Assembly (NCBI GenBank): GCA_016195405.1
Contig: JACPZP010000008.1
Coordinates: forward strand, 62,001-126,000
Length of the DNA stretch: 64,000 nt
Source: Planctomycetota bacterium
Lineage (GTDB): Bacteria > Planctomycetota > Planctomycetia > Gemmatales > Gemmataceae
Reading direction: 5' to 3'
The notes under the pieces are model-generated. The model made no database searches, was not told the DNA's origin, and worked only from the letters and a program-made list of their open reading frames with translations. Below are positions 44,752-47,405 of the stretch, piece after piece (position 1 is the stretch's first letter; each line of letters begins with the position of its first letter). A program made the translations under genes and the position numbers.

Positions 44752-44960
44752 GGTGTTGGCCTCCGTGGCGCTAAACGGCGTACAGTGAGATTGTTACGAC
44801 CGGCGGCGCGGATGGCAATAAGAAAGCCGCGGAAGTCGGTCAGGCGCCAGGGGACCCTTCGAACATTCTTTCAGCGTTGAATAAATCAATATTTCGGCTG
44901 TATCTCGCTATCGGAGTGAGCTTTAGGGAAATGGTTTCAGCGGGACGCGGGGACAGATAC

Positions 44961-45107
44961 AATCCGGCACGTTGCTGAAGCAATTCGGCACGTCGCTGAA
45001 GCAATTCGGCACGTTGCTGAAGCAATCCGGCCTGTCGCTGAAGCAATTCGGCATGTTGCTGAAGCAATCCGGCCTGTTGCTGAAAGAATCAGGAATGTTG
45101 ATGAAAG
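44961..45107. repeat. seven 21-nt tandem repeats
   Basis: Consensus AATTCGGCACGTTGCTGAAGC; the first six units are close, the seventh is diverged, and a partial eighth follows. The 21-nt period keeps all frames open and would encode heptads (for example LLKQFGT on plus, LLQQRAE on minus), but no complete gene with a ribosome site is evident. The rest of the 367-nt gap 44752-45118 shows nothing recognisable. Confidence 0.9.
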
Positions 45108-45118
45108 AATATTTGACC

Positions 45119-47365
45119 TTATCTTGCCGGCGAATAGTCGCTCACGTCCCACAACAGAACTTTGCCGTGACCGCCGCTGGCCAGCGTCCGGCCGTCGGGA
45201 CTAAAACAAATTGACGCTGCGACACATTGGGGCAGGACGAGCGTTTCGCAGATCACGCCTTTGCCGGCGTCGATCAAATGAATACGCGGCTGGGCCACGT
45301 CTTCGATGTGGGGTTCACGACCGTATTTGGGGAACATCTGCGTGAGCACTGCGAGCCAGCGTCCATCCGGACTGTAAACGGGACTGCGCACTAGTTCTCG
45401 TCCCGTTTCGGTGCGCTTGTCACTCAAGACGATGCTTTTGACAAGCTTGCGGCTTGCCAAGTCGAAGAGAAACAGCATTCCCACGTCGCCATTCGAATCG
45501 ACGCACGCGAAGCCTTTTCCGTCCGGAGAAAAAACAGGCGTCGAGAACGCGGAGTTTTTTTGTTCCCCCGGAAAAGAAGCCAGTTCCGTGCCCGATTCGG
45601 CATCCCAAAGCTTCAGGTAGCTCTGCCAAGTTTGAAAGTCACTTCGGCCTGGAAACACCTTGGAGTGGCCCACTACCGACTTTCCGTCGGGCGTGAAAGT
45701 CATGGCGTAAGCCATCGCGAATTTCTCGGTCACGGGGATGGACAGCTTCTCCTTAGCCGTTGCGACATCGATCAACTTGATAGCGGTGGTGAATCTCGAT
45801 TTCGTATCGAGCGCGGCGAGCGCGACCGTTTTTCCATCGGGAGACAAACAAGCAAGCCTAAGGTCTTCGGGGAAGGACTGGTGCTTGCCTGTTCGCACAT
45901 CCCAAATGCTGCAAGTTTCCTTGGGAGCGCCTTCCGTCTCTCCTGATAAGTGCTCACCGGTCACGATTGTAAGGCCGTCCGGCGACAGCTTCATCCACTG
46001 AATGCCGCGTGGCGGATCGTGTTTGAGAGTGGCCTTCAATTTCCCCGTATGAAAATCCCAAACACGAATGTCGCCGTCGAATTCCCAACGCGTCCCTTTC
46101 TTTCCTACCTTTTCTATCTGACTGCCTTTTCGCTTCTCGCGTGCCACAAATAAGGCTTTCCAATCCGGCGTGAGAAAGAAATACTCTTCACTTCCGCGAA
46201 ACTCGTGGCCCGTTTCGATCTTGATAAGTTGCTTGCCAGTCTCAACGTCCCAAAGTTGCACAATGCCGCCTGGATAGTCGCCGGCGACGATTCGTTTGCC
46301 GTCTGGCGAAAACCGAATTCCCTCGATATAGCTGCCCTTGTTGGGATGGATCAACGCACGTTTGAGGCGACTTGAGACCCCTTCGAGCTTCGGTCCCGGT
46401 TTGGAGGCGACCACGTCAATTTCGTGCTTGGAAGGAAGCACTTTGCCCTCCTTCCACGCATCGAAGGATATCGTCATCACGGCTTTGCCGGCGACGACGT
46501 TGGAAGGGGTCCGGACCGGACCATGTAGGTTGTAGTGTCAGCAGCGATCCTTGATTTCGTACAACTCCCTGACAGGCGGTTTGCCTTCGCCTGACGAAGG
46601 GTATGCAATCTCCACGACGGGAAAGGCTTTTGCCGGGATGAGTTCTTCGTAGCAGAAGAAAGCCGTTGCGCCTGCGCCAAGGCCGGGTGTGGCAATACCG
46701 AGGTACAGCTCTTCCTCCCTGCCGACGGTGCACTGGTGTTTGCCGTAAAGGGTGATCTTCATAGTCCCCGCAAAATGAATGACAGGGGCCGTCCGCGGTG
46801 AATCGCCGAATTCAAGCAAGCCTTGGGTGTCACGATAATGCACATACTGGGCGATGCGGCCGCTATCGCGGTTTCCTTTTTTGCCGGGAATTTCCGCGTC
46901 GATGCCAATGAGGATGCCGCGGAACTTAGGATCTGCTGCGACACGCTTCTTCAAGTCTGAATCGATGTCAACGAGGTAATCGATCTTGGCAATGTCGATG
47001 TGAAGGTTCTTCTGAACAAGATTGCCGTCGGGGATGTCGCCGGCTTCAAACTCAAATACGCCCTCTGCCGGTATCGTGTAGTCCCCCTTCTTGGCCGCGA
47101 TACACTCGCCGTCCTCCGTCAAATCGCCGTTGCCGTTGCGATCGACGTAGAGTCTGTCGCCGTCCTGCACGAGCCAGACGCGCGTTTTGGCTTCGGGGCC
47201 GAAGACGAGCAGGCAATACTTGGGCGATTTGGTTTGGTAGGCCAGCTCCTTCTTGATGGTGCGGTCGATCTTAGTCAGGTCGATCTTTGTCGGTTCGCCG
47301 GCTGACGTGACGGCCGTGGCCGCCAAAAGCAGAGGCAGCGCCATTGTGAGATGGGGCAAGCGCAT
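45119..47365 (-). CDS. candidate selenoprotein: exported N-terminal domain plus WD40 propeller, joined across an in-frame TGA
   Basis: The start at 47365 has GGAGG upstream and a signal peptide (MRLPHLTMALPLLLAA). Residues 1-275 are an exported domain with a DRNGNGDLTEDGE EF-hand-like stretch, ending in Cys275. TGA at 46538-46540 follows, then the same frame continues with 19 sense codons (HYNLHGPVRTPSNVVAGKAV), a beta-rich segment (TISFDAWKEGKV) and WD40 blades with SPDGK motifs to a TAA at 45119. No ribosome site precedes the first possible internal start (GTG 46480, ATG 46477). A hairpin 15 nt after the TGA resembles a bacterial SECIS. So one 748-residue protein with Cys275-Sec276 is likely; two genes or a nonsense mutation are the alternatives. 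Confidence 0.6.
46508..46522 (-). promoter_or_regulatory. SECIS-like hairpin after the in-frame TGA
   Basis: Read on the minus strand: GGUCC-GGUCC-GGACC, beginning 15 nt after the UGA. The stem is 5 bp (6 with a GUC triloop), and the loop shows GGUC, the loop sequence of the E. coli fdhF SECIS. The G/U of the loop lies about 21-23 nt after the UGA, within the spacing accepted for bacterial SECIS elements. Confidence 0.5.
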
Positions 47366-47405
47366 GACGTGTCCTCCGGAAGAAGCCGTTCGGATTGGAA
47401 ATACC

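Follow-up and report, generated by a model that had tools for sequence, protein, structure and literature searches.

The gene and its in-frame UGA codon

The window, i.e., the whole stretch of 64,000 nucleotides that was analyzed, carries on its minus strand, at positions 45119–47365, what is very probably one gene for an exported selenoprotein of 748 residues rather than two genes, with a UGA codon that is decoded as selenocysteine (Sec). Nine relatives with the same architecture align with its translation from end to end, with 31–45% identity. A Shine-Dalgarno sequence, GGAGGA (47372–47377), is located 6 nt before the ATG start codon at 47365. The N-terminus of the protein is hydrophobic, MRLPHLTMALPLLLAATAVTSAGEP, and residues 1–22 (47300–47365), which comprise a positively charged n-region and a hydrophobic stretch and are modeled with low pLDDT, probably constitute a signal peptide. 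We infer from these features that the protein is exported.

Upstream of the UGA codon (46538–46540), the frame ends in ...EIKDRC, and downstream it stays open until the terminal stop at 45119, leaving coding sequence on both sides of an in-frame UGA. The codon corresponds to residue 276. The preceding residue, Cys275 (46541–46543), would be the partner of Sec in an RC-U motif and is kept in most Sec-containing and many Cys-containing members of the family. The first candidate start codon past the UGA is a GTG at 46480, 19 codons further on, which has no Shine-Dalgarno sequence. A preliminary description of this DNA had reported the Shine-Dalgarno sequence, the Cys codon followed by TGA with the frame open onward, and a WD40-encoding part without a ribosome-binding site of its own; all of this was confirmed on the minus strand.

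Within the window, the gene is flanked by a glgC-like and a trehalohydrolase-like gene, both named by eye. Just downstream of it, at 44960–45105, lies a tandem array of seven 21-bp repeats (3.5 × 42 bp), CAATCCGGCACGTTGCTGAAG, which reads LKQ(F/S)G(T/L)L on the plus strand.

There are 66 UGA codons in the window that are preceded by at least 100 open codons and followed by at least 40, and few of these have a stem as strong as the one described below. The folding energy of the region after the UGA is unremarkable (z −0.15). Taken alone, the joined frame and the hairpin of the window protein are not beyond chance. Since in-frame joined open reading frames are not rare in the window and the folding energy is ordinary, the case for Sec has to be made by comparison with relatives.

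Relatives with Sec, Cys, or another residue

When 95 genomes of the same taxonomic family were searched with the exported part of the protein, many matches were found with one internal stop codon, which was nearly always TGA. The search was widened to 392 genomes across the phylum, where TGA members were found in eight more genomes outside the family, and to a collection of named genomes with the tighter alignment A2, A1 being too diverse, which yielded further bins with family members. In total, 33 distinct members have TGA and 26 do not, at the same aligned residue. The TGA members, most of which derive from metagenome bins, occur in other families and classes of the Planctomycetota as well.

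The motif at the site is RCU in most members. Single-Sec variants (VD-U, HDG-U, EE-U, and IY-U) also occur, and the rest have RCC or other residues. Cys occupies the Sec position in L025, L042, L045, L065, L067, L088, L090, and others. In some members, this position is occupied by Ser, Gly, Phe, or Met, and not every member of the fold thus requires the Cys-Sec pair. Hence, position 276, where homologues had been proposed to have Cys or UGA, indeed shows either of these and sometimes another residue. A phylogenetic tree requires a minimum of 12 switches between Sec and non-Sec, four of which are forced by strong branches.

The closest Cys orthologues, L088 and L090 (45 and 42% identity, respectively, over the full length), are uninterrupted open reading frames that read RCCTYNFHGPV and RCCYVNFHDGV around the site. 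All WD40-type relatives found have a single frame that runs through WD40. No separate WD40 gene was found among them, and none stops early with an independent WD40 gene downstream, the arrangement that the preliminary description had named as contrary to its proposal. No conserved gene neighborhood was found among the few relatives inspected: genes for a methyltransferase, Uma2, a protein of the peptidyl-arginine deiminase type, NAD synthase, DHODH, and P-domain proteins are located beside different relatives.

In one subfamily (L036/L100 and L059/L104), one genome has DGUSCC and a second has DGUSUC, a direct Cys/Sec exchange two residues on. The DGUSUC member has two UGA codons two codons apart and apparently one hairpin, placed for the second UGA.

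A hairpin at a fixed distance from the UGA

The sequence GGUCC-GGUCC-GGACC, which had been noted just 3' of the UGA, is present at 46508–46522 on the minus strand, where nucleotides +16 to +20 form a stem with +26 to +30 and +21 to +25 constitute the loop. Its position and loop suggest that it is a SECIS element. GU is found at the second and third loop positions, and the loop of the typical member conforms to NGUNN, with a length of 5 nt and a fixed distance from the UGA. Bacterial SECIS elements have in common a small apical loop, immediately 3' of the UGA, that contains a guanosine (PMC1088965), and the guanosine at +22 is conserved in 31 of 32 TGA members.

Conservation of the hairpin had been proposed as a check, and it is pronounced: all five base pairs are kept in 30 of 33 TGA members as opposed to 2 of 25 others, and compensatory changes are found in three of the five pairs. 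L105, in which the TGA is retained but the sequence behind it does not follow the usual motif, was excluded from both the pair table and the cluster test. In the latter, the protein sequence was held fixed and synonymous codons were redrawn. Full stems are present in 21 of 23 cluster representatives, whilst the shuffled sets gave a mean of 3.5 and a maximum of 11 in 20,000 trials. In the 28 ungapped rows, 99.3% of the cells pair, and in nine rows both partners of one pair are exchanged (C-G to U-A or A-U). The covariation score was reached by none of 500 shuffles, and sliding the partner destroyed the covariation. RNAalifold recovers this hairpin on its own; the region gave no match to any Rfam model. 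Folding energy downstream of the UGA was also considered as a discriminator and was rejected, as it failed on TGA versus non-TGA members; only the hairpin in its fixed register separates them.

The GU of the loop supplies the first two nucleotides of a GUN codon, which encodes the conserved Val of the GPVRV peptide. Therefore, part of the conservation of this peptide may be RNA-driven.

The Sec machinery

The source genome, a planctomycete draft of 6.86 Mb, contains SelA (479 bits), SelB (339 bits), SelD (294 bits), and tRNA-Sec (74.8 bits). Thus, the search for selA, selB, selC, and selD that had been proposed earlier yielded the entire set, with SelB split by a contig break. Contig C166 carries its N-terminal part as a frame of 551 residues, and C127 starts with the C-terminal part, followed by selA; the two halves, both at contig ends, appear to join. 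SelD occupies the C-terminal half of an open reading frame of 765 residues without an in-frame stop (L018, on contig C67 of the source genome, G000), the front half of which we take, by eye, to be an NADH-dehydrogenase-like FAD domain.

SelA is nearly universal in the same taxonomic family (87 of 95 genomes) and was found in 11 of 11 TGA genomes tested outside it, and 12 of 16 TGA genomes have a clear tRNA-Sec. Three TGA genomes (G039, G032, and G030) gave no good SelA match, which had been considered as counter-evidence; this was dropped when SelB was found over the cut-off in them, and the lack of SelA is therefore probably due to incomplete assembly. In G039, which has two TGA members, neither SelA nor a clear tRNA-Sec was found, and SelB is present. 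The tRNA-Sec is not clear in G093, G002, and G289, all three of which have SelA. In the genomes of the Cys orthologues L088 and L090, SelA and SelB both remained below the cut-off. The genome of L110, also of the Cys type, does have SelA, and Cys forms thus also occur in Sec users.

The exported domain and the propeller

The exported domain (46406–47296, minus strand) is modeled by AlphaFold2 as a β-rich domain, the C-terminal half of which is an Ig-like/macroglobulin-like β-sandwich (pLDDT 92.7, pTM 0.89). It has no Pfam match, and a sequence search of the PDB gave nothing useful. The best PDB structures found with Foldseek are weak matches to Ig-like and macroglobulin-like sandwiches, with no thioredoxin among the top matches, and a viral structure library gave generic matches only, mostly to phage proteins. 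A conserved DRNGNGDLTE loop near the N-terminus (DRNGNGDLTEDG, at 47108–47143 on the minus strand; alignments A2 and A3) resembles, by its sequence only, an EF-hand/dockerin-type loop and may bind calcium.

In the model, Sec276 is located in a turn between the strands 273–275 and 279–285, and the strands 293–300 and 312–319 follow before the propeller begins near residue 334. As further strands follow Sec276, stopping at the UGA would truncate the Ig-like domain. In this respect the preliminary description needs correction: it took the 19 codons after the UGA as a linker into WD40 and placed Sec at the domain border, whereas the exported domain is completed by these 19 and ~25 further residues, and Sec276 lies inside the β-sandwich. 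The WD40 β-propeller comprises residues 334–742 (45140–46366, minus strand), as indicated by Pfam matches over the cut-off (PF07676 and PF00400), the model, and Foldseek matches to WD40 structures, e.g., 5yzv and 5mzh.

Other architectures in the family

The fusion of an exported domain to WD40 in a selenoprotein, as put forward in the preliminary description, is real, but it is only one of several architectures. The family also includes forms without WD40, fusions to TIGR03067, and a fusion of an ECF sigma factor, a membrane segment, the Sec domain, and WD40. Short forms end ~40–60 residues after Sec (L033, L036, L037, L039, L055, and L093). The source genome itself has at least three family genes with a Sec-TGA, i.e., those in the window and on contigs C79 and C188, and in the C79 paralogue the frame extends into a domain of the TIGR03067 type.

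Several Gemmata-type relatives, with Cys or another residue at the site, consist of an ECF sigma factor, a hydrophobic segment, the exported domain, and WD40. One Sec-bearing sigma fusion has the same order, with RC-U in the exported domain. It was found in Fimbriiglobus sp. bin Prado160 (L096, 3164–6145, the same gene as L029) as one frame of 994 residues.

The paralogue on C188 is 100% identical over 2014 nt to a sequence (L098, 1449–3462) on a contig labeled Chloroflexi (JACQED010000495.1; NC_groundwater_1012). Beyond these 2014 nt, the two diverge, and L098 stays in frame. The broken frame of the C188 paralogue probably results from mis-assembly, and either the bin of L098 or that of the window genome is contaminated.

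Decoding of the UGA and possible functions

The reading of the UGA as Sec, as proposed in the preliminary description, is supported by the 33 relatives with TGA, the machinery, the covarying hairpin, and the Cys orthologues. SelB loaded with Sec-tRNA(Sec) would decode codon 276, directed by the SECIS hairpin 16–30 nt 3' of the UGA, which would present GU in its loop. In the product, adjacent Cys and Sec residues would occupy a turn of the extracytoplasmic Ig-like domain, and the WD40 propeller would come after this domain.

A UGA is normally a stop, in-frame joined open reading frames occur by chance in the window, and the GTG at 46480 could serve as a start codon, so that an exported protein that truly ends at the UGA might be followed by a WD40 gene in the same frame by chance. 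This is highly improbable, since the Cys orthologues are uninterrupted across the site, the Ig-like fold is completed by conserved residues right behind the UGA, the WD40 part has no ribosome-binding site, and 33 relatives have TGA at this codon together with a hairpin that covaries. A fused protein would also result if the UGA were read by another route, i.e., by plain readthrough or as a different amino acid, for example Trp after a code change. That option is still less credible, as the replacements at the site are mostly Cys, as expected for Sec, the hairpin occupies the position of a bacterial SECIS element and is almost restricted to UGA members, and the Sec machinery co-occurs. The least credible option, with a negligible probability, is that the UGA stems from an error in sequencing or assembly, or that the gene is a pseudogene inactivated by a nonsense mutation. 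The draft assembly is fragmented, and the frame of the C188 paralogue appears to be broken by an assembly join, but relatives from many independent assemblies also have TGA at this codon, and the Ig-like part and the WD40 part on either side of it are conserved. For the family as a whole, sequencing error is refuted by the independent relatives.

As the most likely function of the Cys-Sec selenoprotein, we tentatively propose, from the chemistry of the pair and its domain company, a reversible thiol/selenol site at the cell surface, in which a Cys-Sec selenosulfide would react with oxidants, thiols, or soft metals and the WD40 propeller would act as a docking platform. A role as a classical oxidoreductase is unlikely because of the non-thioredoxin fold. 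Vicinal thiols bind soft metals, and it is quite conceivable that the pair is a ligand of such metals (Hg, Cu, or Ag) or of selenium or tellurium, or that it forms a purely structural selenosulfide. The existence of single-Sec members (VD-U and HDG-U) is consistent with such roles, as is the Ig-like fold, which makes a classical thiol-disulfide reductase unlikely, whereas no metal-resistance genes were found beside the few relatives inspected.

The same module is found C-terminal to membrane-bound ECF sigma factors, in one case with Sec, and it may thus serve as a sensor. Its redox state could be passed through the membrane to the sigma factor, which would make the Cys-Sec Ig-like module a selenium-dependent extracytoplasmic sensor, with stand-alone WD40 forms, among them the window protein, belonging to the same signaling system. 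We consider this extended scheme rather unlikely. If it were true, Sec would act in signal sensing for transcription and not in an enzyme.

Novelty and comparison with known systems

The window protein apparently belongs to a new, undescribed selenoprotein family that is spread across the Planctomycetota. No paper on selenoproteins with WD40 in planctomycetes was found in openly licensed full texts, and the text of reviews on prokaryotic selenoproteins mentions neither WD40 nor planctomycetes. The earlier statement that no described selenoprotein of this architecture was known thus agrees with the openly licensed literature and reviews searched. The family is not among the nine new selenoprotein families of deep-Sep and was not found among the selenoprotein families in PMC9312934 and PMC12013277, and no Pfam or NCBIfam model for it was found. 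No description of Sec in an ECF sigma-WD40 protein like L096/L029 was found in the literature either. Priority is not certain, because the literature searched was openly licensed and a planctomycete genome paper lists candidate selenoproteins in its supplement (PMC4807772).

Standard annotation would cut the genes of this family at the UGA, and they are thus easily missed in databases. The fold is unusual for selenoproteins, and Sec is joined to WD40 propellers; one relative also combines it with an ECF sigma factor. Sec-decoding planctomycetes gain a concrete set of candidate selenoproteins.

Like selenoproteins of the E. coli FdhF type, the family combines an in-frame UGA with SelA, SelB, SelC, and SelD and a 3' hairpin with GU in the apical loop, and shows replacement of Sec by Cys among relatives. 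Unlike in the FdhF type, the hairpin is short (5 bp with a 5-nt loop) and at a fixed distance, and its GU is part of the Val codon of (H)GPVRV. The DUF1573 domain with Sec is a β-sandwich and probably extracytoplasmic, as is the domain described here. The motif differs, however, being Cys-Sec and not the Sec-Gly-Cys (UGC) of the listed DUF1573 selenoprotein (PMC9312934), and so do length and partners. The Pfam scans gave no match to the DUF1573 model. The adjacent Cys-Sec pair and the Ig-like fold also set the protein apart from thioredoxin-fold selenoproteins with their CxxU or UxxC motifs.

An adjacent Cys-Sec pair is present in the GCUG motif of mammalian thioredoxin reductase as well. The window protein shares the pair but has no flavoprotein or thioredoxin-system domain; its fold is Ig-like and the pair is internal and not C-terminal. 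ECF sigma factors with WD40 domains are a known planctomycete innovation (PMC8567305), and L028, L030, L031, and L096 match them in having a sigma factor, a hydrophobic segment, the exported domain, and WD40. In the window protein, a signal peptide replaces the sigma factor.
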